From Bacteroidota bacterium (GTDB taxonomy: Bacteria; Bacteroidota; Ignavibacteria; UBA10030; BY39), in assembly GCA_030017895.1 (NCBI GenBank), contig JASEGV010000034.1, positions 1-32,558 on the forward strand: a DNA stretch of 32,558 nucleotides, written 5' to 3'. How positions within the stretch are numbered: the stretch's first letter is position 1; every line of letters starts with the position of its first letter. Of this stretch, positions 12,180 through 32,558 are shown one piece after another. The translations under genes and the position numbers were made by a program. The notes under the pieces are model-generated. The model worked only from the letters and a program-made list of their open reading frames with translations. It made no database searches and was not told the DNA's origin.

Positions 12180-14063
12180 ATGAAATTTATCTACTGTATA
12201 GTGTTATTTAGCTTAATCTTTTCTTCTTCCAGTTTTGCACAAACAAGGCATGATGTTTTTGTTCCGGTAGGAGCGAGCGACAGTCTTGATGCAACTTACT
12301 TCATTCCTACAACAGCACCTCCCGCTAATGGTTATCCTGTGATGGTTTTTGTACACGGGTTCGGAGGAAGAAAAAACTCTACAATCCCATCCGCTGAGCG
12401 CTATGCAAAAAGTAGTTATCTCACATTTTGTTATACCGTCCGTGGTCACGGATATTCCTCAGGTAATTCCACTATTATGTCCACACGCGAGAGATTTGAT
12501 TTGGCTGAAGTCGTTAATTTCGTCAAGGCTTTACCGAATGTTGATACTAACTCGATAGGCATTATCGGCGGGTCGCAAGGCGGGCTGCATGGACTCTGGG
12601 CTATCGTTGATAATTTGCCGGTTAAAGCAGTATCGGCGGACGTGATTGTTCCTCGCTGGGCATCGGATATGTTGACGAATGGCGCTGTCAGAAGAACTGT
12701 GCCTGTCCTACTCAAAAATTCTAGCGTCAAATATGACCCCATACAAGACACATTGTGGAATTTACTCACTCGCGATTCATTCGACTCGCTTTACTCTATT
12801 TTCACGGCGCCGCGTGATATCGACACAGTAACTTTGCAATCCTCACAAAAGCCGCTGATGACTTTTATTAAATATCAGGACTTTTATTTTGAAGCAAGCG
12901 ATGGAATCAGAAACATGATTACATATCCCGGTTTGAAGAAAATGTATTTGGGAACCGGGGGACATTTTTCGGACGATAATTACGATCAGTGGCAATACCA
13001 ATTTTCCTGGATAACAAGATGGTTCAAACATTTTTTAAGAAATATTAATACTGGATTCTTTGATGAACCTAAATACACTTACGCTTACAGCAGCCTTCCG
13101 ATGGATTCTTTGGGATATTTCAAGTGGAAACAACACGAGATAAATGAACTACCGTTTCATAATAGTGTGCCTCACCGGTTTTATTTGCATTCGAATGGTT
13201 ATCTAAAATATTCAGCCCCGACATCAGTTAATGAAATCGCTGAGCTTATTAACGATTACCGCGACTCAATGTACAATTTTGAAAGAGCATGGATTGAAGG
13301 CTTTACCGGGCTTCGGTTCGACTCCGCTTTTACTAAACGAACATTAGTTTTCGAAACATCTCCATTAAACACCAGCGCACTTATGTTTGGCGCTCCACGA
13401 ATTAATTTCTATCTTAAGTCGTCTTCCGAAAAATTTCCCGTTAATGTTCAGATATACGAAGTTGATAGTTTAAATAATAAATATTTTATCAACCGGATAA
13501 ATTACGTATCGCGCGGGAATCTAACCGGTCAAATGATTACTGCTGACGTTCGTGGCTTCTTTCATTCACACGAATTTCAAGCAAACAACAGGATCAGAAT
13601 CGAAATCACTAATATTGATAAAACCAACAGGAAGTTACTCGGCAGCGTACCATTCGTTCTGCCTGTTTTTAAATACAGCCGCAATGAAATATTTGTGAAC
13701 GAAATTTATGCTTCATATATCGAGTTGCCTTTAATGACAAACGAATATATTCTAAGAGTTTTAGACCAAACACCGAGCACTTTCCATCTATCTCAAAATT
13801 ATCCGAATCCGTTTAATTCGACAACAGCGTTGGAATATTCTCTTCCACAAAATACTCATGTAACTTTAAAAGTTTACGACATATTAGGCAGGGAAGTAAA
13901 AACCTTGTTCGAGGGGAAACAATTTGCCGGCACATACAAAGCAACTTTCAATGCCGATCAGCTTGCGAGTGGTGTATATTTCTATAGATTAATAACAGCC
14001 GTAACCGATAATAATGTAAACAATTTATCGGGATACACGCGAAAAATGATTTTAATAAAATAA
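12180..14063 (+). CDS. Secreted alpha/beta hydrolase (CocE/X-Pro peptidase-like) with type IX sorting domain
   Basis: This 627-aa protein starts with a signal peptide (1-20, ending SSSSFA). An alpha/beta-hydrolase domain follows, with HGFGG oxyanion strand (59-63) and the nucleophile S132 in GGSQGG; the layout, including a beta-rich C-terminal part after about residue 320, resembles the S15 / CocE-NonD family of dipeptidyl peptidases and esterases. The last 90 residues are a type IX secretion sorting domain (QNYPNPFN, KVYDILGREV, GVYFYRL, basic end), so it is probably exported to the cell surface or medium. The substrate is unknown. The frame has a GTG at 12171, but the ATG at 12180 is better: AGGTG lies 8 bases before it and the signal peptide begins there. 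It is downstream of the mdh terminator and so has its own promoter. Confidence 0.85.
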   Translation: MKFIYCIVLFSLIFSSSSFAQTRHDVFVPVGASDSLDATYFIPTTAPPANGYPVMVFVHGFGGRKNSTIPSAERYAKSSYLTFCYTVRGHGYSSGNSTIMSTRERFDLAEVVNFVKALPNVDTNSIGIIGGSQGGLHGLWAIVDNLPVKAVSADVIVPRWASDMLTNGAVRRTVPVLLKNSSVKYDPIQDTLWNLLTRDSFDSLYSIFTAPRDIDTVTLQSSQKPLMTFIKYQDFYFEASDGIRNMITYPGLKKMYLGTGGHFSDDNYDQWQYQFSWITRWFKHFLRNINTGFFDEPKYTYAYSSLPMDSLGYFKWKQHEINELPFHNSVPHRFYLHSNGYLKYSAPTSVNEIAELINDYRDSMYNFERAWIEGFTGLRFDSAFTKRTLVFETSPLNTSALMFGAPRINFYLKSSSEKFPVNVQIYEVDSLNNKYFINRINYVSRGNLTGQMITADVRGFFHSHEFQANNRIRIEITNIDKTNRKLLGSVPFVLPVFKYSRNEIFVNEIYASYIELPLMTNEYILRVLDQTPSTFHLSQNYPNPFNSTTALEYSLPQNTHVTLKVYDILGREVKTLFEGKQFAGTYKATFNADQLASGVYFYRLITAVTDNNVNNLSGYTRKMILIK

Positions 14064-14070
14064 AAATTAC

Positions 14071-14100
14071 TTGATTGTTTGGAATTATTTTATGTATATT
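14071..14100 (+). promoter_or_regulatory. Predicted promoter of the TPR-larE gene group
   Basis: TTGATT (14071-14076), 18 bases, TATATT (14095-14100). The leader to the ATG at 14154 would be about 46 bases and includes a GGAG ribosome site (GATCGGAGAAACT). Confidence 0.5.
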
Positions 14101-14153
14101 ATGTTAGTATATGAAACGATGCAAAATAAAAATATTAATAGATCGGAGAAACT

Positions 14154-15560
14154 ATGGACACATACAATTTCGACGAATCTGATGATATCGATCAGCCAAG
14201 GAACCAAGATAACGAAACAAAGGATCTTCGGGATAAGATAAAAAATACGAATGGAAAACTTAGTGCTGAAACTTTAGAAGATGTAGTGAACCTCTTCATC
14301 GAAGAAGGAGACTACGCAAATGCGCTGTTTTATATAGATATGCTGATTGAGCAGAATTCATACAGCTCTGAATTCTGGCAGATGAAAGGAAACATTCTCA
14401 GTCTATTAGAGAAGTATGAAGAAGCGCTCGAAGCATTTCAAAAATCATTGATGTTAAATCCTTCAGACAACGAAGTTATTTTGTATAAGGGGATAGTTCT
14501 CGAACATTTGAACAGGTTTGAGGAAGCAAATGAATGTTTTAATAAAGCCATTGAAGAGGAGCCAGATAACGAAGACGCTCTCTTCTCGAAGGCGATTATG
14601 CTTGAAAAAATGAGCAAATACCACGAAGCCCTCCCGATTTTAAAACATCTCCTTCAAATAAAGCCGGATGACAAATTATTAATATATGAAGTCGGCTTTT
14701 GTTATGATATGATGAACAAATTCGATGACGCTCTCCGATATTACAAAAAGAATTTAGAACTCTATCCGTTCAATTATAACGCTTGGTACAACTGCGGTAT
14801 CATTTATAACCGGTTAACGTTTTACATGAAAGCTATCGATCATTATGATATGGCGATCACAATAAACGAGAACTTTACGTCGGCTTGGTACAACAAGGGA
14901 AACACTTTTGCCAACATGGGAAAATTGTACGAGGCGGTCGAATGCTACCAACACGCTATCCGGATCGATTCTGATGACTCGCATGCCTGGCATAATATGG
15001 GCAACGCTTATCAGGAATTAGGGGAATACGACCAAGCGATCAAATGTTTTACTCAGGCGATAAAGATCGATTCTGCTCATTACGAATCATATTACGCGAG
15101 AGGTGTTTCCTATGACTATCTAAAAAAATATCGGAAAGCTTTAGAAGATTACAACCGTGCTTTGATGTTATTCAAAAACGATTCCGACTTATGGTATGCA
15201 AAAGCTGATACTTCATATAGTTTAGGATATTGGCGCGATGCACTGATCAGCTATAAGATGGCTTTGAAAATTAATCCGGAAAATTTATATGCTTTGTTCG
15301 ATTTGGCTGAAACCCTCCTCGAGTACGGATACTACAAACAATCTTTAAAATCTTATAACAAATGTATTGATCTAAAATCCGACTGGGCAGATGCCTACTA
15401 CGGAAAGGCAAAAGTCCTTTTCCTTTTGCAAAAACATCACGAAGCGATTGAATCGTTGAGAAAATCTTTCACGTTAGATGAAACCAAGAAAGAGCTTTTC
15501 GAAACGGAATTTCCGGGCGTCCGTTCTATCAAAGAATTTTTGCAGTTGTTAAAAAAATAA
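14154..15560 (+). CDS. Tetratricopeptide repeat protein
   Basis: This 468-aa protein has an acidic, polar N terminus (about 1-45) followed by about twelve TPR units of 34 residues up to the end, for example AWYNKGNTFANMGKLYEAVE, AWHNMGNAYQELGEYDQAIK and SYYARGVSYDYLKKYRKALE. No signal peptide or membrane helix is seen, so it should be cytoplasmic. TPR arrays bind proteins; the partner is unknown. larE begins 24 bp downstream on the same strand, suggesting joint transcription. The repeats give it a very regular helical structure and no enzymatic domain is present. Confidence 0.93.
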   Translation: MDTYNFDESDDIDQPRNQDNETKDLRDKIKNTNGKLSAETLEDVVNLFIEEGDYANALFYIDMLIEQNSYSSEFWQMKGNILSLLEKYEEALEAFQKSLMLNPSDNEVILYKGIVLEHLNRFEEANECFNKAIEEEPDNEDALFSKAIMLEKMSKYHEALPILKHLLQIKPDDKLLIYEVGFCYDMMNKFDDALRYYKKNLELYPFNYNAWYNCGIIYNRLTFYMKAIDHYDMAITINENFTSAWYNKGNTFANMGKLYEAVECYQHAIRIDSDDSHAWHNMGNAYQELGEYDQAIKCFTQAIKIDSAHYESYYARGVSYDYLKKYRKALEDYNRALMLFKNDSDLWYAKADTSYSLGYWRDALISYKMALKINPENLYALFDLAETLLEYGYYKQSLKSYNKCIDLKSDWADAYYGKAKVLFLLQKHHEAIESLRKSFTLDETKKELFETEFPGVRSIKEFLQLLKK

Positions 15561-15584
15561 TTCTTTCCACACATTCTTCCACAC

Positions 15585-16442
15585 ATGACTTTACAATCGA
15601 GCATTAAATATAACCGTCTCAGGCAAATTTTGTCTGAGATTGAAAACGTTGTTATCGGTTTTTCGGGAGGCGTTGACAGTACACTTCTTTTAAAAGTTGC
15701 AACTGATGTGTTAGGCGATAAAGCTTTAGCCGTAATCGGAAAATCTGAAACTTATCCGGTCCGCGAATACGAAGAAGCCGAATCTTTTGCAAAAAGCATC
15801 GGAGCGAATTACCTCGTCGTTCATACCGAAGAAACCGACGACTTAAAATTCAAAGAGAACCCGCCCGACAGGTGTTACTATTGCAAAAGCGAATTGTTTT
15901 CAAAACTTTCTGCCATTGCTGCTGAAAATAAAATCAAATGGATTGCTGACGGTACAAATAAAGATGACCTGCAGGATTTCAGACCGGGAATGAAAGCAGT
16001 GCACGAAAAAAATGTCCGCTCACCTCTGCTCGAAGCCGGCTTGACCAAACAGGATATACGAGAAATCTCGAAGGAGCTTTCGCTTCCGACATGGGACAAG
16101 CAATCGTTTGCTTGTTTGTCGTCCCGTTTCCCGTACGGTTTTGGAATAGATAAGGAAAAATTAAAAAAAATTGATGATGCCGAAACATTATTGCACGATA
16201 ATGGCTTCAAATATTTCCGCGTTCGGCATCACGACGACAAAACAGTACGCATCGAGGTCGGTAAAAACGAAATCGAAAAATTTTTAGATAAAAATTTACG
16301 CCAGTTATTAGTTCAAAAAATTAAAGAAATCGGTTTCACTTATATCACACTTGATTTAGAAGGATACCGCACCGGATCGATGAACGAAGTATTAACCCAA
16401 ACCGAAACCGAAAATTATTTAAACAATCACAAACAAATATAA
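15585..16442 (+). CDS. larE: LarE-like ATP-dependent sulfur transferase, three-cysteine type
   Basis: LarE adds sulfur to the nicotinate-derived precursor of the nickel-pincer cofactor of lactate racemase and related enzymes. This 285-aa protein has the ATP pyrophosphatase PP-loop SGGVDST (27-33) and the segment SFACLSSRFPYG with C177, matching the sacrificial Cys176 of Lactobacillus LarE. It also has CYYC (C97, C100), so three cysteines are in place as in LarE forms reported to hold a [4Fe-4S] cluster and to act catalytically instead of consuming themselves. No larA, larB or larC is in the window. A general PP-loop sulfurtransferase is the alternative, but length and motifs fit LarE well. 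The ATG has no clear ribosome site. Confidence 0.87.
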   Translation: MTLQSSIKYNRLRQILSEIENVVIGFSGGVDSTLLLKVATDVLGDKALAVIGKSETYPVREYEEAESFAKSIGANYLVVHTEETDDLKFKENPPDRCYYCKSELFSKLSAIAAENKIKWIADGTNKDDLQDFRPGMKAVHEKNVRSPLLEAGLTKQDIREISKELSLPTWDKQSFACLSSRFPYGFGIDKEKLKKIDDAETLLHDNGFKYFRVRHHDDKTVRIEVGKNEIEKFLDKNLRQLLVQKIKEIGFTYITLDLEGYRTGSMNEVLTQTETENYLNNHKQI

Positions 16443-16453
16443 CCGACTTGATT

Positions 16454-17050
16454 ATGTTAAAACAAAATTTGAAAATATTAAACATCATATTGATATTCTG
16501 TTTTTTGAGCGATTTACCGGCATTTGCACAGCGTTCAAAACCAATGAATATCGAAGACCTTGTAAAAAAATCTGAAGTAATTATTCACGGGATTGTAGAA
16601 AAAGTTGAAAGCGGAAAGGATGCTCAATCCGGACTGTTGGTTACTTACATAACAATCAATGTTTATGAAAATTTCAACGGTGCCCAAACAGGCAAATACA
16701 CATTCAAACAATACGGCGGGAAAGCCGATGGTCTTGTTTATTTTCCTGCCGGCAGTCCTCGATTTACCGAAAACGAAGAAGTTATTCTGATGCTTTATCC
16801 TCAAAGCACAAAAGGAATGCAGAGCCCGGTAGGTATGGAACAAGGTAAATTTTCTGTTGTAATCGACAATCGTTCAGGAAAAAAGTTTGTACAAAATAAA
16901 ACACCTAATCCGAATTTGTTCAAACATTTAAAAAATCCGAAAACAGTTTCCAACAAAAAGTGGCTAAAACCTGTTCGTATTGAAAAATACGACTATGTTG
17001 AATTCGCTGAAACCGTTCGTAAACTTGTATCAACATTAAAAACTAAATAG
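16454..17050 (+). CDS. Secreted protein of unknown function, paired with matrixin
   Basis: This 198-aa protein begins with a signal peptide (about 1-26, ending LPAFAQ). The mature part starts MNIEDLVKKSEVIIHGIVEKVES and continues with a beta-rich region (LVTYITINVYENFNG, a glycine turn, then EEVILMLYP), which looks like a small extracellular beta-barrel found in many bacteria; I do not know a named function. The frame has a TTG at 16448, but the ATG at 16454 starts a normal signal peptide. It is 11 bp after larE and 8 bp before the matrixin protease, so it is in the same transcript as the protease. An accessory or regulatory role for the protease is a guess from this pairing. Confidence 0.75.
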   Translation: MLKQNLKILNIILIFCFLSDLPAFAQRSKPMNIEDLVKKSEVIIHGIVEKVESGKDAQSGLLVTYITINVYENFNGAQTGKYTFKQYGGKADGLVYFPAGSPRFTENEEVILMLYPQSTKGMQSPVGMEQGKFSVVIDNRSGKKFVQNKTPNPNLFKHLKNPKTVSNKKWLKPVRIEKYDYVEFAETVRKLVSTLKTK

Positions 17051-17058
17051 GAAACGAA

Positions 17059-19038
17059 ATGCAGAAACTTCGAATACTACTTGCCTGTGTGTTAATTTAT
17101 ATTCAACTTTCTTTTATTACTTTTGCCGGTGGACCTCTCACGACTTATCAAAATAGATCGATAGTGTATAAAACAATGCCGATAACTTACCAGACCGACA
17201 AAGGAAATTTAGGCAATTTCTTAAACCTGACGGCAAAAAATTTGACAATCGGAAGTTTTCAAGTTTGGCAAGATGTCGCATCGTCGAATGTTACATTCCT
17301 CCATCAAGGCGAACTGCTAATCGATGTTGATGGAACAAATTTTACAAACTACTTAGATAATTTTTCTGACGGAATTAATCCCGTTGTATTCGATAATAAC
17401 GGAGCGATAATTGATTCGATCTTTGGCATTGGTGCAAGCGACGATATTTTAGGATTTGCAGGATCAGCTTATTATGATGCAGGTCCCGACGCGGGTTACT
17501 ACGCTGAAGGCGAAGCTGTGTTAAACGGAAAATTTACACAGCCGCCACACAATCTTACAGAAATCCAATATAAAGCTACTATTGTTCACGAGCTTGGACA
17601 TTTTATCGGACTCGACCATACGCAAATAAACGATGAGTTTGCCGGCGATGGAATTACAGCAAACGATATTTATATTCCAACAATGTATCCTACTTCGACT
17701 GATGATGATGTGTCGTTAGCAAATTTGAATCCGGACGATATCGCTGCTGTAAGCTTTTTATATCCTGAACCTTCCTTTACAACTTCGACAGGAAAAATCA
17801 GCGGGACGGTAGTTCGTTTCGATAATTCAGTCGTTCGTGGTGCCAACGTTGTTGCGATTAGTACGACCGATTCTTTGATGAATCAAATTTCTACAGTTAC
17901 CGATTATTTTGTTCAAAATACAGGCGACTACACGATACACGGTTTGTCGGCAGGAGATTATTTTATTAAAATTGAACCGATTATTTCCTCCTTCACAGGT
18001 GGTTCAAGTGTGGGTCCGTATGCGGAAGATGGAAGCGGTATCTCATTTATCAATCCGGTTTTAGCCGAGTATTATAACGGACAGAACGAGTCGCACGACC
18101 CGTTAATTGATTCCGTGAATGCGCGAGTGTCAGTATCTGTGAGTACAGGAATAGTAACGAGCGGAATAAATTTTCTTGCCAACAAAGTGCCCGACCAGCC
18201 ATTAACAAATATTTTGGAATATCACGGAACTCCCAAGTACGTCATTGATTTGCCATCGGAATTTGAAGAAATCGCTTATGCGGTACGGTTTACTCCGGGT
18301 GCGGATGCAAAGTTAAAACGAACAGAGTTTTTAATAAACGGTGGAACAAATGGAATTAAAGGCAACGGAACATTGAAAGTAACAGTTCATAATAACTCAA
18401 CCGGAAGTTTGGGCGGTATCCCCGGAACTCAAATCGGGGTTGCAATAAATATCCCTTTTTCGAATTTAACAAAAGGTGCGTTTAATACAGTCGATTTAAG
18501 CCCGCTTAATATTACTATTCCGAAAGATGTAAATTTTCATATCGTGTTTGAAGTGGTAGGAACAGCGGGTGATACAATACAATTTGTAATAGATGACGGA
18601 GCGAACCAAACGACTCGCAGTTCATCTCTTTTCGATTTAGAGTGGTTAAATTTTCAAGATGTGAATAATTTCGGAAGAGGATATAATTTGGTTATCCGAA
18701 CAGTTGTAGATTTGCTAACCTCGGTAGAAGAGGAAGAAACTTTATTGCCGGATAAGTATGCCTTGATGCAGAATTATCCAAACCCATTTAATCCTGTTAC
18801 ACGAATAAAATTTTCCATTCCCGAAGCTGGTTATGTTAGCATGAAAATCTACGATGTTTTAGGGCGTGAAATTTCAGAACTTGTCAGCGACTGGAAAGAA
18901 GTTGGAACTTATGATGTTGAGTGGGATGGATCTAATTTTTCAAGCGGCGTATATTTTTACAAGCTCGTGGTGAGTTCAACAGAACCACTTGCAGCAGGCA
19001 ACTATACATCGGTGAAGAAAATGTTATTGGCAAGATAA
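17059..19038 (+). CDS. Secreted matrixin-type metalloprotease with type IX sorting domain
   Basis: This 659-aa protein has a signal peptide (about 1-23), then a metzincin catalytic domain with the zinc site HELGHFIGLDH (H177, E178, H181, H187) and a Met-turn in IPTMYP (M209). A carboxypeptidase-regulatory-like beta domain follows (about 244-308, GKISGTVVRFDNSVVRGANV), then a beta-sandwich region (about 380-545) and a type IX sorting domain (about 570-659: QNYPNPFNP, KIYDVLGREI, GVYFYKL, KKMLLAR). It would digest proteins outside the cell or at its surface. The substrate is unknown and no obvious propeptide cysteine switch is seen. The ATG has AGGAAA upstream, overlapping the end of the preceding gene. 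The next gene is convergent, with 37 bases between and no clear hairpin. Confidence 0.92.
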   Translation: MQKLRILLACVLIYIQLSFITFAGGPLTTYQNRSIVYKTMPITYQTDKGNLGNFLNLTAKNLTIGSFQVWQDVASSNVTFLHQGELLIDVDGTNFTNYLDNFSDGINPVVFDNNGAIIDSIFGIGASDDILGFAGSAYYDAGPDAGYYAEGEAVLNGKFTQPPHNLTEIQYKATIVHELGHFIGLDHTQINDEFAGDGITANDIYIPTMYPTSTDDDVSLANLNPDDIAAVSFLYPEPSFTTSTGKISGTVVRFDNSVVRGANVVAISTTDSLMNQISTVTDYFVQNTGDYTIHGLSAGDYFIKIEPIISSFTGGSSVGPYAEDGSGISFINPVLAEYYNGQNESHDPLIDSVNARVSVSVSTGIVTSGINFLANKVPDQPLTNILEYHGTPKYVIDLPSEFEEIAYAVRFTPGADAKLKRTEFLINGGTNGIKGNGTLKVTVHNNSTGSLGGIPGTQIGVAINIPFSNLTKGAFNTVDLSPLNITIPKDVNFHIVFEVVGTAGDTIQFVIDDGANQTTRSSSLFDLEWLNFQDVNNFGRGYNLVIRTVVDLLTSVEEEETLLPDKYALMQNYPNPFNPVTRIKFSIPEAGYVSMKIYDVLGREISELVSDWKEVGTYDVEWDGSNFSSGVYFYKLVVSSTEPLAAGNYTSVKKMLLAR

Positions 19039-25061: not shown

Positions 25062-27653
25062 TTATAATTCCAATACCTTCATCGACTCTTCTCCAAATTG
25101 CGAGATGACACGCACTGCAATTTTCTGCCCTTTCTTTTTTACTTCGATGGGATGCGAGATGTGCCCGTACAGCCGCTCGAACGCTTCTTCATCGATTTCA
25201 ATTCTTAAAGCAGCTTCGGCTTTCTTTTTGGTAGAGGAAAGTGCAAGTCTTGTTAATCCTTTTTTCCAGTTATCAAAATCATCTTTTTCTCCGCCGCAGA
25301 AAAATGCCTGCTTCACGATAAAATTGCTTCCGTCGTAATCGTCGTCCACCATCCAGTAGGCGATGTCGTGGATGTCGCGGGGCTTCACCTCGTCTTTGAT
25401 TGGATCGTAGATGTCGAGACCACGGATTTCTATTTGCACGGTTTTCGACCCCACCCCAACCCTCCCCTTAGTAATGGGAGGGTGTATCATCGCAATGTCT
25501 GGCTCGGCGATGGTTACAAACGATGCCGCTTTCTTGTCCTTCTTCAATAATCCTTCCTGCATCAGGTCGTCGTGCATGCGGATTTTGCTCACTTCAAATG
25601 AACCGAACTTTTCACTCGTAATCGTTTGACTGCTGACATCGCTCTCAAACGAGAAGCCGAGTATTAAAAGCCAATCGGCATCGCCGCGTGTGCGGCACTC
25701 TTTGATGGCTTCGTTCACCGCTGCTTTACTCACAGTTCCAAACTTTGGACCAATATGGATATATGCTTTCCGCTCGCCTTTCTTTGCCTGATAAAAACCT
25801 TCGGCGTGCAGGTACGGACTTGTGAGCGGATCGATGCGAGTAAACACTGCTTGCTCTTGCTTCATTCCGGTTTTCACTCCCGCCGACTTGAGATGATCGA
25901 ACACCTTTTGCTCAAAATTATCATCGGCATCGTGCGATTGAGAGATTTCTTCCGGTGAGAGTGGGTTCAAGCTTTGTAATGTTTCGACAGTAAACGGACC
26001 TGCAACACGGAGCTTCTTGGTGTCCACCTCAGGACGATCGTACAGGGTTTCTTCCTTTGCCGGCTCGTCATTGGCAAGACTCTCGAGCGTAACGTGTGGG
26101 ACTTTCTTGTAGATGAAGCCCTGACGGATATCGCCACCCTTCTCGTCGTACAATTTGTAGTAGGGCAACACCGCAGCCATGAGCCGCTGCTTGGCGATGT
26201 TCAGTGCGATGCGCGATGTATCCGTGGTGATCCATCGCCTGCCCCACTGTTCGGCAACATACGCCGTTGTGCCGCTGCCGCATGTTGGATCAAGTACGAG
26301 ATCGCCGGGATCGGTGGACATAAGAAGACAACGCTGAATCACTTTCACATTAGTTTGAACAACGTACATTAAATCAGTTGCACCCATGAGATCAGACCAA
26401 ATATTTGTTTGTGGCACAACTGGAAAATCTTTTAAATACATTTTATAACGAATCGAGTTCCCTTGAAAATGTATTCGATTCATCTTGTCTAAAGTTTTTA
26501 TACCATTGTGTGTAGTTTTCCAATGGGCAGTCGAACGAGGAGTATACTCTCTGCTATTTAGGGTTATTGGTTTCGATCCTGTTTCACTCCAACCACCAGA
26601 TTCTAGTGAAACTGATTGAAATATCTTATCAAAATTATCACTAAAAAACCGAGATGTCTTTTCTTCAGGAGAAATTCTTCTAACTCCTTTTAGATCTTCT
26701 ATGTAATCATAACCTGAAGGAATATCGTAATCGCTCATCCTCTCTTGATAGAGGTTACGCCATTTGCATTGTTCTTTATCCTTGGCATAACATATAATAT
26801 GATCGATGACATTTGAAAGGAATTTCGAGCTAAAACTTCCAGTTTTCTGAAATGATATTTGTGTAACAAAATTCTCGCTCCCAAACACCTCATCCATTAC
26901 GCTTCGCACGAGGTGAACGTTCTCGTCGGAGATTTGCATGAAGCACGAGCCGCTCGGCGTGAGAAGCTCTTTTGCAACGAGAAGCCGGTCCCGCAGGTAA
27001 GAGAGGTAGGTGTGTATGCCGTCAATCCACGTGTCTCGGTATGCTTTAATTACCTCCGGCTCGCCGCTTACGTCTTCGTCCTTCTCGCCCACAGTGCGGT
27101 TGTTGAGCTTCATCTGCCAGTTGCTTTTGTAGGCAATGCCGTAAGGCGGGTCAATGTAAATCATCTGCACTTTGCCAGCCATACCTTCGCGCTCAAGTAG
27201 CGAGGTCATGGTGAGGAGCGAGTCGCCCAAAATCATACGGTTCTTCCAGTCGTCCTGGTGCTTGTAGTAGCTGCCGGGCTTCTCGGCTTCTTCCACCTTA
27301 ATCATCCCGTTGAACTCGGTGATGAGCGAAAGCTGGTCGGGGTTGGTCTCGGTGTAGCGGTAGAGATTCTTAATGAGCATCTCCGGCGAGATGTGCTCGT
27401 GCCGGTAGAGCGAGCGGATATCCACCTTGAGCAATTCTTCGCGGTTGTCGTTGCCGTACTTATCTTTCCAAAAAAGCTCAGGGTCTTGCCCGCGATGGAC
27501 AACCGGATTGCTTGCCCTGAGCGAAGTCGAAGGGAGAGAAAACTCAGCAGAAGTTTTCGCCTGCACCTTTGGGTTAGATTGCTCGTAACCCGCTTCTTCT
27601 TTAGAAGGGATGTGCGGGCGCTTGTCTTTGTGTTTAAATGATGATATTGACAT
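25062..27653 (-). CDS. Type III-like Mod DNA adenine methyltransferase
   Basis: This 863-aa enzyme is predicted to methylate the amino group of adenine (less likely cytosine N4) in a specific site. It has the beta-class order: catalytic motif IV DPPYG (168-172) first, then a target-recognition region (about 255-430), then the AdoMet-binding motif I DPTCGSGT (455-462). The C-terminal 350 residues (including [17 protein letters not shown] and [13 protein letters not shown]) match the extended tail of Mod proteins that accompany Res-type helicase-nucleases. The N-terminal [10 protein letters not shown] and DPELFWKDK also fit that group, supporting the start. Two interspersed repeats lie in frame inside the gene (27511-27534 and 25449-25484). 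G+C is high in the flanks (about 50-65% in sampled lines) and near 32% in the recognition region. It is 256 bp from the AlbA_2 gene, so it may have its own promoter. Confidence 0.9.
25449..25484 (-). repeat. Interspersed repeat with hairpin, in frame inside the methyltransferase gene
   Basis: CCCTCCC (25460-25466) and GGGAGGG (25476-25482) form a perfect 7-bp stem with a 9-base loop, preceded by ACCCCACCCCAA. From memory, this hairpin type with C-rich flank is a common dispersed element in many bacterial genomes, whose translation gives HPNPP-like peptides. In the gene it encodes the segment [12 protein letters not shown] (724-735), between the anchors EPDIAMI and VQIEIRG. No second copy is in the window. 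Confidence 0.6.
27511..27534 (-). repeat. Interspersed repeat in frame near the methyltransferase N terminus
   Basis: The element contains CCCTGAGCGAAGTCGAAGGG (27515-27534), which I recognise from memory as a short palindrome-like repeat dispersed in many genomes; its opposite strand reads through as CPERSRR. In the gene it encodes LPSTSLRAS (40-48), in the variable linker between the conserved KRPHIP and DPELFW segments. No second copy is in the window. Confidence 0.6.
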
Positions 27654-27909: not shown

Positions 27910-29550
27910 TTATTTGGACCGCCAGTATTTTGTATATCTAAGTTTGCCTGCTTTTGTAATCAACTTTTCTTCCAACATCTGGTACAATTGTGTCTGTATT
28001 TTTCGAACCGGTATTTCTTTACCGATTCGCTCATGAATCTCACCCACGGAACTTCTTGGGTATGTCTTTAAGTCGGCAAGTATGAGTTCTCGCAGTCTTG
28101 GACTCTCGATTTGTTTCAGCGTGGTCTTTCCTTTATACCCTATTTTCCGAAGAAGCTCAGGGTTAACAAAGTATTGCATGCCCTTTGTTTTTCCTTTCGA
28201 TAATACAAGTTTGTTGTTGGTCAACTGTCCAAGCCAAGCCCGTACTTCTTCTAACTTTTTCAATGCTAGAATTTTGCTCAGTTCATTGGCAGAGAGAGAA
28301 CTATGTTGTGCAATTACACCAAGGGTAATAAGTTCTTTTTGTTTGAGTTGATAATCTTTCGATACTTTATCCATCAAGCGTAATGATTCCGCATTAAATA
28401 TTTTTCCATATACTGTAACGATAACACGGTCATATTTCTCCTCTACTACCGGAAGCTGTTTACCGTCAGATATAAGTATTTGATAAATGCGGTCATATCC
28501 GCTGCCTTCACGTTCCATCAGTTTTAAATCATAGAATACTTTAGCAAGGTGTTCGTTACGTCTAACTGATTGATGTAGAATATTTTTTGGTGTGACACCC
28601 AGCGGAAGAAGTCCTGGATTATGTACTTCTAATCTGTCGGTATAAAGGTTGATAAAAATATCTCCCTGCATTACATAGACTCGATGCGCAAGAGCATTGG
28701 CAACTAATTCACGTATGACTTCACGGTTGTATATAGGGATTGAATTCCGAAATATTCCTGATGGGAATTCAATAGATTCATTCCAATCGTCAAGTTTTTC
28801 AACTGCCGATAAAAGCTCTACAGGATTGAGAGAATAATCATCAAAAGAAATCTTCTTTACCTTGTTATCCAAATTATCATAACGAATGAAATGAATTGTA
28901 GGTGAATACAATAAGGCAGCCCTGTCTTCCCTTTGCCCTATCCAAAGAATTCCAAGATTTGTTAAGTATTCATCTTTCACAAAAAAATAATGTTCAAGCA
29001 ACTCATCATCAAATTTATTCCTTATAAAATCGGAGACTCTATCTGAGAATCTAATTGCATCCACAAAATCCTGAAGTTTCCTCTCATCGACTTTTGTTTT
29101 GGGTATTCGCTTTGTTGTTTGTAATTCCCAAACGAAAGCATTCTTTTCTGCTGCTAAACGGCTTAATTGGTCGGGCATCACCGGATGACATTCATCTGAG
29201 ATTCGGATATAGTATCTACCATCTGACGTACCTGCAATTGTTTGTCGACTTGGATAAACTTCAATCTCTATATATTCAGCACTATTTGATGCTTTCTTTA
29301 TTGTAGCCGGAGCTATGCCAAGATTAACCGAATGTTGGCGGATGTATTTGGTTATTTTCTCTGGTAATGAAACATCAATCGTTTGATTCTTCGGTGGAAT
29401 ATCAGTATCATCCTCAATTCCGATGAGAATGGAACCACCTCTGCCATTTGCAAAACAGACAGCAATCCTGACAAGCTCGTGCAAGTCGGGAGATTTGCCT
29501 GTAAGCAGTTTCAAAGATTTTTTCTCTATGTCTTGAGTTTCATTCATCAA
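27910..29550 (-). CDS. AlbA_2 (Schlafen-type) and HATPase-fold protein in the restriction locus
   Basis: This 546-aa protein has an N-terminal AlbA_2 / Schlafen-like domain (about 10-125, with FANGRGGSILIGIEDD and GRYYIRI), a middle part and a GHKL ATPase-like domain of the HATPase_c_4 type (about 275-365: EVIRELVANALAHR, then RLEVHNPGLLP, then EREGSGYDRIYQ). The C terminus (about 390-546) looks like two winged-helix DNA-binding domains. Proteins of this build are usually annotated as ATP-binding or transcriptional regulators and often sit in defence islands. Its ATG overlaps the end of the helicase-nuclease gene by 4 bases (ATGA), so translation is coupled and the two products are probably made together. 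It may regulate the locus or work as a third component; this is inference. Confidence 0.88.
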   Translation of the reverse strand: MMNETQDIEKKSLKLLTGKSPDLHELVRIAVCFANGRGGSILIGIEDDTDIPPKNQTIDVSLPEKITKYIRQHSVNLGIAPATIKKASNSAEYIEIEVYPSRQTIAGTSDGRYYIRISDECHPVMPDQLSRLAAEKNAFVWELQTTKRIPKTKVDERKLQDFVDAIRFSDRVSDFIRNKFDDELLEHYFFVKDEYLTNLGILWIGQREDRAALLYSPTIHFIRYDNLDNKVKKISFDDYSLNPVELLSAVEKLDDWNESIEFPSGIFRNSIPIYNREVIRELVANALAHRVYVMQGDIFINLYTDRLEVHNPGLLPLGVTPKNILHQSVRRNEHLAKVFYDLKLMEREGSGYDRIYQILISDGKQLPVVEEKYDRVIVTVYGKIFNAESLRLMDKVSKDYQLKQKELITLGVIAQHSSLSANELSKILALKKLEEVRAWLGQLTNNKLVLSKGKTKGMQYFVNPELLRKIGYKGKTTLKQIESPRLRELILADLKTYPRSSVGEIHERIGKEIPVRKIQTQLYQMLEEKLITKAGKLRYTKYWRSK

Positions 29551-32387
29551 ATTTCAGCCAGCTTTGCCTTAATCTGGTTTTTTATATCTCTGATATCACC
29601 TGCAATCTCAATAAAATGCCACTCATAGCATTCGTACTTTTCTTTAACTGCATTGATTGCCGGAAGCCAGCGATTTTCGACATACCACTTCTTCTCTTCT
29701 TTGTCATTCGAGAAACCAGATATTTCGACAATCAAATTAACAATCTTACCGCTTTTCGTTTTACACCGAGCGATGAAATCCGGCTCGTACATCGGATTAT
29801 CTTTTCCATCTTTGTTGTACGGAATCTGGAAATCGAGAAAAGCATTCTTTACGTATGACAGAACTTCAGGTATTTCATCCATAGTCTTCGCTGCAATCTG
29901 TTCCCAGCTCTCCGTATCACCAACTACTACGTTCACATGGCTCTTTTTGGTCGGATATGTTTTTCTTGTTGTCTGCCCGCGAACATATTTCGTTGATCCG
30001 AATTTGTTGTAGTGGTTAAACACAGGTAATACAACATCCGTCTTCCTTTGTTCAGCGTAGATACCGAGCATAATATGATCGCATACAGCTTTTGGATCGT
30101 AATATAAAATCATATTTTTAAATGCATCACCGATAAGCTTAAGTTTTGTATCGAACCATTCCTCTACAACTTTTTTTAGTTGATTGAATTGATAGAAATA
30201 GGGGTTACCATCGTCATCTTTGTAAAAATGGTTTATGATATACTTAGTAAGAGTATAAACAACTTCTTGCTTGCGTTTTAATTTTGTTTGGTCTAATGTA
30301 AGCGTTTCTTTCTCGGGTGAAAACGCATTTGCCATGACTGTATATTCAGGATATTTCGAGCCATCAATCTCGAAATCTTTTATCTTACTGAAATCCGATT
30401 TAATAATATCATTCGAAATTTCGATTCGGTATCCAGTAAGATTCGGAAAGGTAATTTCGTATTTAGCATCACGCTCCGGCATTGCATAAACCTGTTCGAC
30501 TTTTTCCGGTTGGACAGGCGTTCCCACTTTTCCTTTTTTGAAAAAGGTAAACGGAACTCCGGCAACCTGAGCATACTCAGATGTAAACTTACCATCTTTT
30601 CCTACTACGTAGGATACACGCCGCAATGCACGACCAACAACCTGCTCGCATAATAACTGTGAACCGAATGCACGAATGCCCAAAATGTGTGTAACGGTAT
30701 TTGCATCCCATCCTTCCGTGAGCATCGAAACAGAAACTACGCAGCGAATGTGAGAGCCAAGCATTCCGACTTTTCCTACAGTATTCACTACCTCACGAAG
30801 AATATCTGCCTCCGCTACTTTTTCTACCGACTTATCCGGGTGGAGTATGCGGTATTCCGATTTGAACCGATTTATTTCAGGTGCAAACACTTTCTTGAAT
30901 TGTTCATCTATCTGATCTGAGTTCTCAAGTGCATCTGAATCAATAAGTAACGTAGGAGGTTTTAACAACGGCTGACGTGTTAGCTTGTCATAGTTATCAA
31001 ACAAATCTAACTTTCCATTCACAACTGTCGTAGTTCCATCTGCATTTGTTAATTCATATCCTGCAATATATTTGAAAACCTCTGACGAAACATTCGTGTT
31101 ATTGCAAACAATAATGAACACAGGGGGATGATCGAACAACCCGCGATAACGTTCATACTCTTTAAAATAATTCGTATAGAGCTGTTCAAGGGCAATTTGA
31201 ATTAATGGTGGAATATCAGGCCTTCCCTCAAGCCTTCGGTGTTTTGCACCAAAATTTGGCAAATCCTTTTTAACATGCTCATATAAGTTTGCTAACTTTG
31301 GCTGCTCTAATTCATGCGTTGGATCTTCTTCAGGTAAGAAAGGAATTTTCACAAGTCCAGATTCAATCGCCTCGACCAATCCAAAGTCGCTGACAACCCA
31401 AGGGAACAAAGTATAAGACTCATAACCAGAACCCTGCAAATAATAAGGTGTAGCACTCAGGTCATAAACCGAACGAATTTTGTAGCGTTGGGATATTTCT
31501 GCAAGTCCAGTGACCCACACAGCGGCTCGTTCGTTTTCCTCTTTCGAAACATCTTCTCCCTTTTTTGCACCGTTATTTTTCGGAAGGTAACAGTGATGTC
31601 CTTCATCATTAATTACAAGAAGGCGTGTCCCAGTTTTGAACTTTCCAATAACTCTGCGTATCATCTGATTATAATCTTCAGTTGCTTCACGTTTATTACG
31701 ACCTTTTTTCCCGTCTAACGGGCTTCGTTTATTCCCTTGTAGCGCCCTTAATTCAAATGAATGGCGATTCGTTACGATGAGGCGAGAATTTAGAGCAAGA
31801 AGTAAATCTTGGTAAAACTCTGAACGGGGCACAAGGTCTCTTAGATGATAATAATCTCTCTCAGAATTCCTGTCGGCATCAGCATAAAGGACACTTAGGC
31901 GATCTCTGATAGTAATACCCGGCGCCACAATCAGAAAATAATCTGCAAATCTAGTATCTCCACGATACTCTTGCCGGTTAAAGTAGTGATATAGAAGCTG
32001 CATCGCCATAACAACGGTTTTACCTGTTCCTGTTGCCATCTTAAAAGCAATTCGAGGAAGGTTGAACTGAATTTTATCGGTGGATATTTTATTCCACTCA
32101 CTCTGTAATCCATTAATAACATGTTGCCCGATGTTCGACTTTTCCGCAATTTCATTTAACCATATCGTCGTCTCTATAGCTTCTCGTTGAGCAAAGAAAA
32201 GTTTGTTAATACGTTGCGGATTGAACCAATAGCTCAATAACTCCTTTGTAACTCGAGTCGTCTCCGGATAGCCGGTTTCTCTCCACTTTTTCACTTCTCT
32301 TCGTACTAGATTTACAATATGTTTTTCATATTCAGCCGATATATCGCTGACATCGAGTAATGACCTTTGTCTCTGCGCAATAGGCAT
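29547..32387 (-). CDS. Res-like DEAD/DEAH helicase-nuclease (BPTD_3080-like restriction enzyme)
   Basis: This superfamily 2 helicase with a C-terminal nuclease fold resembles type III Res subunits and the family annotated as BPTD_3080 restriction endonucleases. Motifs, numbered from the ATG at 32387: Walker A MATGTGKT (117-124), motif II DEGH (261-264), motif III SATP (311-314) and motif VI QVVGRALRR (582-590). The nuclease region (about 835-946) keeps D870 in EPDF and E888 in LIVEIS, but the third residue is S890 where Lys is normal. The ATG at 32387 is not the natural N terminus: the same frame continues upstream to 32525 with family-like residues (RPILNNPYEEP, then LDYDDKRKGRRPF), has no ATG, GTG or TTG, and meets a TAA at 32526-32528. 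Translation should be coupled to the AlbA_2 gene downstream. Confidence 0.88.
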   Translation of the reverse strand: MPIAQRQRSLLDVSDISAEYEKHIVNLVRREVKKWRETGYPETTRVTKELLSYWFNPQRINKLFFAQREAIETTIWLNEIAEKSNIGQHVINGLQSEWNKISTDKIQFNLPRIAFKMATGTGKTVVMAMQLLYHYFNRQEYRGDTRFADYFLIVAPGITIRDRLSVLYADADRNSERDYYHLRDLVPRSEFYQDLLLALNSRLIVTNRHSFELRALQGNKRSPLDGKKGRNKREATEDYNQMIRRVIGKFKTGTRLLVINDEGHHCYLPKNNGAKKGEDVSKEENERAAVWVTGLAEISQRYKIRSVYDLSATPYYLQGSGYESYTLFPWVVSDFGLVEAIESGLVKIPFLPEEDPTHELEQPKLANLYEHVKKDLPNFGAKHRRLEGRPDIPPLIQIALEQLYTNYFKEYERYRGLFDHPPVFIIVCNNTNVSSEVFKYIAGYELTNADGTTTVVNGKLDLFDNYDKLTRQPLLKPPTLLIDSDALENSDQIDEQFKKVFAPEINRFKSEYRILHPDKSVEKVAEADILREVVNTVGKVGMLGSHIRCVVSVSMLTEGWDANTVTHILGIRAFGSQLLCEQVVGRALRRVSYVVGKDGKFTSEYAQVAGVPFTFFKKGKVGTPVQPEKVEQVYAMPERDAKYEITFPNLTGYRIEISNDIIKSDFSKIKDFEIDGSKYPEYTVMANAFSPEKETLTLDQTKLKRKQEVVYTLTKYIINHFYKDDDGNPYFYQFNQLKKVVEEWFDTKLKLIGDAFKNMILYYDPKAVCDHIMLGIYAEQRKTDVVLPVFNHYNKFGSTKYVRGQTTRKTYPTKKSHVNVVVGDTESWEQIAAKTMDEIPEVLSYVKNAFLDFQIPYNKDGKDNPMYEPDFIARCKTKSGKIVNLIVEISGFSNDKEEKKWYVENRWLPAINAVKEKYECYEWHFIEIAGDIRDIKNQIKAKLAEI

Positions 32388-32520
32388 CGTGGGAACAATC
32401 GGTATAAACGGTCTGCGACCTTTGCGCTTATCATCGTAATCTAATCGACCATCAAGATCGGTTTGATAATAAAACTTGGGTTCCTCGTAAGGATTATTGA
32501 GTATAGGGCGGTTCCAAAAA

Positions 32521-32551
32521 TTGACTTATTGAATACTTTTTTTTGTATATT
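32521..32551 (+). promoter_or_regulatory. Possible rightward promoter at the window edge
   Basis: TTGACT (32521-32526), 19 bases, TATATT (32546-32551). It would read out of the window into a divergent gene. The spacer is longer than the 17-18 bases at the other sites, and it overlaps the upstream coding extension of the helicase, so it may be chance. Confidence 0.25.
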
Positions 32552-32558
32552 TAAGAAA

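Follow-up and report, generated by a model that had tools for sequence, protein, structure and literature searches.

Type III restriction-modification combines ATP-dependent cleavage, which needs two sites, with methylation of one strand. In EcoP15I, the Res protein is an SF2 helicase with a C-terminal nuclease, it works together with the Mod methyltransferase, and its nuclease site carries the classical E-x-K.

In several other families of the PD-(D/E)XK fold, the lysine of this motif is described as mobile. In COG4636 it is now found on the helix after the strand that once carried it, and intermediates possess both lysines; the cases given are all3650, from E111 to K127, and Tt1808, from R118 of an EXR to K130 (PMC551604). 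In DUF1626 the motif III lysine is often a threonine and basic residues are found in the next helix, and the migration in DUF790 is reported to be similar (PMC1913061); PMC1189080 also treats lysine migration and DUF790. Bax1, a DUF790-type nuclease, has measured activity, and the aspartate of its nuclease domain matters (PMC7293015). In some restriction enzymes the lysine is replaced by Glu, Gln or Asn (PMC551604, PMC1189080), and the fold also has a non-cutting member, RPB5 (PMC551604). Lysine migration is a kind of variation already known from other PD-(D/E)XK families. For the restriction family studied here it was not found in the literature covered by our search, which returned no treatment of the BPTD_3080 family, either by name or for lysine migration.

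The window, i.e. the whole stretch of 32,558 nucleotides that was analysed, contains a gene pair that resembles a type III system, with a third gene between the two:

25062 to 27653, minus strand: mod, N6/N4 DNA methyltransferase, open throughout (Pfam PF01555; PADLOC MTase_III PDLC03632, 9e-161)
27910 to 29550, minus strand: SLFN/AlbA_2 protein with a RecG-like HATPase_c_4 domain, between res and mod (Pfam PF04326, PF13749)
29547 to 32387, minus strand: res, BPTD_3080-family helicase-nuclease, 946 aa from the first in-frame ATG

The res product is a member of the BPTD_3080 family by its whole-protein score: it reached 1008.1 bits against NCBIfam NF046055 (BPTD_3080 family restriction endonuclease), for a cut-off of 800, and the match was full-length (residues 7-942 on positions 53-969 of a profile of 970). 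The helicase motifs ATGTGKT (118), DEGHH (261), SATP (311) and QVVGRALRR (582) were found in Res. Residue numbering takes the ATG at 32387 as its start, and the frame typical of the family begins about 45 residues further upstream. The Mod-like N6/N4 methyltransferase by which a type III system is recognised is adjacent, with motifs DPPY (168) and DPTCGSGTT (455). Among loci of at least 7.5 kb, the SLFN/AlbA_2 protein was found between res and mod only in the window and in locus L009 from a genome of the same genus; its weak PADLOC matches, pAgo-like and SIR2-Ago-like, are probably spurious. Genes farther away (an ABC transporter ATPase-type protein, a glycoside hydrolase, a histidine kinase and others) are apparently unrelated.

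The residues of the nuclease site are located as follows:

29901 to 29903, minus strand: E829, motif I glutamate (WE) of the nuclease domain, invariant in alignments A1 and A3
29778 to 29780, minus strand: D870, motif II aspartate (EPDF), from the translation, invariant in A1 and A3
29724 to 29726, minus strand: E888, motif III glutamate (LIVEISGF), from the translation, invariant in A1 and A3
29718 to 29720, minus strand: S890, codon TCT, at the usual position of the catalytic lysine, from the translation
29700 to 29702, minus strand: K896, which may be the catalytic lysine in its new place, where the helix following strand 3 begins (family rows, A5, model)
29691 to 29693, minus strand: K899, helix lysine common to Lys-type and Ser/Thr-type members (93 of 93 rows)

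Translation of 29547-32387 on the minus strand confirmed the reading of this site in the preliminary description, namely EPDF with D870, LIVEISGF with E888 and S890, and the TCT codon. The motif I Glu, motif II Asp and motif III Glu are invariant in both alignments (A1, 83 rows; A3, 63 rows). The lysine that should stand two residues after the motif III Glu is absent from Res, where S890 takes its place. This is no bar to membership of the PD-(D/E)XK group, because variants lacking that lysine are described as accepted members (PMC551604, PMC1913061). A Pfam search with the nuclease domain of the window alone matched no family; one Ser/Thr relative, L019, scores above the cut-off of RE_endonuc (PF19778). 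No match to Res was detected in the phage records searched.

To compare the site across the family, relatives were drawn from 395 genomes of the phylum and 391 of the class, two partly overlapping sets, and from genome stretches and 20 of 55 matching plasmid records; the sample is weighted heavily to Bacteroidota, the window's own phylum. Removal of duplicates and of a second copy of the window left 101 rows, window included. Eight were fragments without reach or match at the motif and were dropped, so that motifs were counted in 93. Sixty rows have E-x-K-G, 19 have E-x-S-G and 14 have E-x-T-G (window included). The expectation that relatives carry E-x-K therefore holds for 60 of the 93 rows and fails for the other 33, which have Ser or Thr at the position of the catalytic lysine and come from several phyla. 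Among the 20 plasmid records, 8 are of the Ser/Thr type: Hymenobacter, Methylomagnum, Chondrocystis, Fischerella, a Nostocales strain, Picosynechococcus, Chlorohelix and Rhodococcus, that is, members of Bacteroidota, Gammaproteobacteria, Cyanobacteriota, Chloroflexota and Actinomycetota. The window Res has its nearest relative in the congener L009 (92% identical), with Thr at the site, and the whole branch of the window carries Ser or Thr at position 890. The NF046055 family mixes E-x-K with E-x-S/T members, and the window lies on the Ser/Thr branch. None of the 33 Ser/Thr rows has lost the motif II Asp, the motif III Glu, K899 or the WE of motif I.

From this comparison we conclude that having Ser or Thr here is stable and normal for a sizeable share of the BPTD_3080 family, and that S890 is no lesion. 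The preliminary description had named a large E-x-S subfamily with proven cleavage as what would speak against its reading; the first half of this applies, since a large subfamily was found, of E-x-S or E-x-T type and 33 rows strong. A sequencing error at S890 is ruled out by the Thr of the congener. Two further loci concern the distribution of the types. One same-genus genome (G484) holds both a Lys-type member with E-T-K-G (L106, contig C98) and a Thr-type member (L096, contig C128), and a Ser-type res with three internal stops (L105, genome G660) is near-identical to an open copy in another genome (L100, G579).

A second lysine follows the site, and its distribution differs between the two types. 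Raw MAFFT columns mis-register the helix lysine in Lys-type rows, and the register was set instead by the conserved Trp of the following helix. Counted in this way, every one of the 93 rows has a lysine at W-8 or W-7 (K899 in the window). The position three residues earlier (K896 here) holds a lysine in 32 of the 33 Ser/Thr rows and in 0 of the 60 Lys rows; in the raw columns, with no Trp anchoring, 4 of the 60 Lys rows also have a lysine in the K896 column. The sole Ser/Thr row with no K896 equivalent is the Rhodococcus one (L045, Ser), which has a longer loop. The loop is also longer in an IMG/VR locus (L139), and there the K-x-x-K spacing is still kept; locus L138 has the equivalents of both lysines. 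Alignment A5 contains 23 Ser/Thr nuclease domains, and none of them departs from K896 or K899. A naive Fisher value for K896 against Ser/Thr is 4e-24; as the rows share ancestry, this figure is not a true probability. K896 is thus a conserved lysine at the next helix that tracks the loss of the strand lysine, but it does so over only about two events on the tree.

Since K896 accompanies Ser/Thr in 32 of 33 rows and Lys in 0 of 60, with the other motifs kept, the catalytic lysine is most likely at K896. S890 is a subfamily feature, and we put the probability that the catalytic lysine has been relocated to K896 at roughly 0.6. The earlier suggestion that the role of the lysine had moved to a neighbour, for example K896, gains support from this comparison.

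To place these residues in a structure, residues 700-946 of Res were modelled with AlphaFold2 on 63 sequences. The model has a mean pLDDT of 87.1 and a PD-(D/E)XK topology, with a strand at 882-889, S890 directly after it and a helix at 897-913; the block 890-899, i.e. the loop with S890 to K899, is less certain (mean pLDDT 77). As the model helix begins at 897, K896 lies at its start and K899 in its first turn. A Lys-type member (L018), modelled as well, has the same order of elements in its nuclease part. The best structural matches of the model were TnsA (Z 7.5) and Bax1 (Z 7.2, rmsd 2.4 over 91 residues, 6p4w_B), then Can2 and Hjc among others, in a Z range of 5-7.5 that is middling, values under 8 possibly reflecting only a common arrangement or fold. 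Foldseek returned no match at E 0.001 or better, and phmmer with the whole protein found no relative of solved structure. Profile searches against known structures gave only weak matches, to T7 endonuclease I (E 0.11; 0.89) and to the EcoP15I nuclease domain (E 1.2, 4zcf_C), and in the search giving E 0.89 and E 1.2 unrelated proteins outscored both. EcoP15I Res shares with the window Res the plan of an SF2 helicase with a C-terminal nuclease and a Mod partner, but the two are not close relatives.

The arrangement proposed for the Ser/Thr members has a close parallel in COG4636 and Tt1808, with their PD-EXX-K site. There too, as described, the strand lysine is gone, a conserved lysine lies on the next helix, and intermediates and lineage switches occur inside one family (PMC551604). 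Unlike Res, that family is no helicase-nuclease, its lysine is farther from the Glu than K896 or K899, and its strand position holds a hydrophobic residue or Arg rather than Ser or Thr (PMC551604). DUF1626 resembles the BPTD_3080 family in its motif III Thr, in the Lys or Arg of the following helix and in having both kinds within one family; in contrast, the account of it in PMC1913061 describes no restriction-helicase link. Bax1 is like Res in that it works with an SF2 helicase, XPB, and in that the DUF790 family has a migrated residue (PMC7293015, PMC1913061); it differs in being an archaeal repair factor, the helicase of which is a separate protein.

With the lysine at K896, the following scheme can be proposed. 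The gene res encodes a Res-like helicase-nuclease that belongs to a restriction-modification pair of type III-like kind, and we infer that cutting activity is most likely retained in the Ser/Thr subfamily. E829, D870 and E888 would bind the metal, and the water-positioning lysine would come not from strand 3 but from K896, which presumably reaches the metal site from the start of the following helix. The lysine next to it offers a less likely variant, which we consider doubtful: in the Ser/Thr subfamily catalysis would fall to K899, which both kinds of member possess, and K896 would serve only in DNA binding. K899 has an equivalent in every row and sits in the first turn of the model helix, and the migrated lysines described for COG4636 lie farther along the helix, nearer to K899 (E+11) than to K896 (E+8) (PMC551604). 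However, members that have the strand lysine conserve K899 just as well, so K899 does not follow the loss of that lysine, whereas K896 does.

The strength of this association depends on how often the switch took place. On the tree the Ser/Thr state changes about twice, and the K896 state does likewise; with so few switches, the association of K896 rests on few events. An independent-pairs test of K896 against Ser/Thr gave p = 1, with only 1-2 pairs and hence no power. A single Ser/Thr origin, tested under the plain LG+G4 model, gave a p-AU of 0.114 with 54 rows, and of 0.0052 with 83 rows, L045 and L105 being left out. The Ser/Thr state may have arisen once, twice, or once with a later reversion to Lys in the E-I-K-G group. 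For the family as a whole, we hold it about an even chance that a single type III-like helicase-nuclease family uses two lysine sites, either E-x-K on strand 3 or E-x-S/T ... K-x-x-K with the lysine at the start of the next helix, that several switches between them have occurred, one of them perhaps back to the strand, and that all its members still restrict.

Gene neighbourhoods and selection were then considered. A methyltransferase ORF adjoins res in 17 of the 19 Ser/Thr loci with flanks, the window not being counted; 16 of these ORFs are of at least 786 aa, and one, at a contig edge, is of 410 aa. The two other loci are L044, the record of which ends just after res, and the congener L009, which has a mod remnant of 110 aa. 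In the latter (12672-17672), mod stops after about 98 codons and a CRISPR-Cas locus follows (Cas9-like protein of 1094 aa, Cas1); the rest of mod was not found in that genome, and with mod truncated, Res is therefore left there without its Mod. On the Methylomagnum plasmid (L042, 13561-16069) the pair is followed by genes annotated as CBASS phospholipase and nucleotidyltransferase. Between the window and L009, dN/dS is 0.06 for the whole of res and 0.15 for the nuclease domain: the nuclease domain is under purifying selection. Judged by gene content, the Ser/Thr loci fit working restriction-modification pairs. The earlier remark that the site does not reflect general decay is right. The low dN/dS and the branch-wide Ser/Thr rule out an origin of S890 by random mutation or decay.

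These data also bear on a proposal of the preliminary description, that the protein binds or translocates DNA without cutting it. In its wider form the Ser/Thr subfamily would be nuclease-dead or weakly nicking, Res acting as a translocase or roadblock and methylation being the main output. The catalytic lysine by name is indeed missing from these members, and the fold is described as having non-cutting members such as RPB5 (PMC551604). We nevertheless regard this as improbable: every other active-site residue is kept in the Ser/Thr rows (the acidic residues of motifs I to III and K899, in 33 of 33), which leaves a non-cutting protein unsupported by the family pattern, and the domain is under purifying selection, with one lysine gained where the other is lost. 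Marginally less probable again is a site that needs no lysine, in which the Ser or Thr at 890 and a second metal would position the water. Restriction enzymes with Glu, Gln or Asn in place of the lysine are described (PMC551604, PMC1189080), and position 890 in the non-Lys rows is only ever Ser or Thr, which is not free drift; such a site would, however, leave the exclusive presence of K896 unexplained.

Relocation of the lysine to K896 would thus leave a working nuclease in the subfamily. In this particular genome the gene has suffered a separate damage, at its 5' end and absent from the preliminary description, where an IS-like element separates res from its start codon:

32502 to 32505, no strand: TATA, one copy of a 4-bp target duplication, the second copy being at the junction on contig C53
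32506 to 32558, no strand: end of the IS-like element that breaks into the 5' part of res, containing a 30-mer with 40 genomic occurrences

The reading frame shared with the family runs on upstream of position 32387 with no ATG, GTG or TTG and is closed by a TAA. The family N-terminus (ILNxPYxxP...) can be read in this frame, but ahead of any usable start codon, and the IS-like end cuts it from the native start; this bears on the condition of the window copy and not on its descent. The last 53 bases of the window (32506-32558) have no match in L009, where homology begins at the junction. A 30-mer from this segment occurs in 40 copies in the genome, each near a contig end, and the IS-like end was absent from all 59 other genomes examined. 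The missing 5' end of res, i.e. its ATG and six further codons, was found with the upstream gene at the end of contig C53 (start of L131). There the res fragment is followed by GGGCAGTTCCAAAAATT, and the window side of the junction reads AATTTTTGGAACCGCCC. The ends of the element are imperfect inverted repeats, GGGC[AG]GTTCCAAAAATT, and in the eight copies of the end that were read, the window's included, the adjoining 4-mers consist of A and T only. Because TATA is present at both junctions, the ends are inverted and the L009 site is uninterrupted, we conclude that res is interrupted after its seventh codon by an IS-like element. No transposase or other internal part of the element was found on the contigs seen, because contigs break at its copies.

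A family search of the same genome returned, besides the window copy, only a weak match of another kind. From the reading frames, the window copy of Res is probably not made, or is made without its conserved N-terminus, and the system in this genome is probably off, owing to the insertion rather than to S890. The earlier idea of a silenced system thus likely holds for this genome, but the cause would be the insertion and not the serine. That the whole system here is in decay, S890 included, is very improbable, for although the insertion after the seventh codon of res and, in the congener, the truncated mod beside a Cas9-like gene would fit, the rest of res and the whole of mod are open, and S890 need not belong to any decay because Ser or Thr is the state of the whole branch.

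For the family, the consequence is that requiring E-x-K would mark about a third of the sampled members as nuclease-dead. If K896 is catalytic, the Ser/Thr members would be working defence systems, and the family would offer a clean pair of alternative active sites, comparable by exchanging one or two residues; if the series of two lysine sites holds, the order and the cost of moving a catalytic residue would become measurable. More generally, the absence of a catalytic residue should be checked against an alignment of the family before the system is declared silent; in this genome, the real damage is the insertion at the start of the gene.
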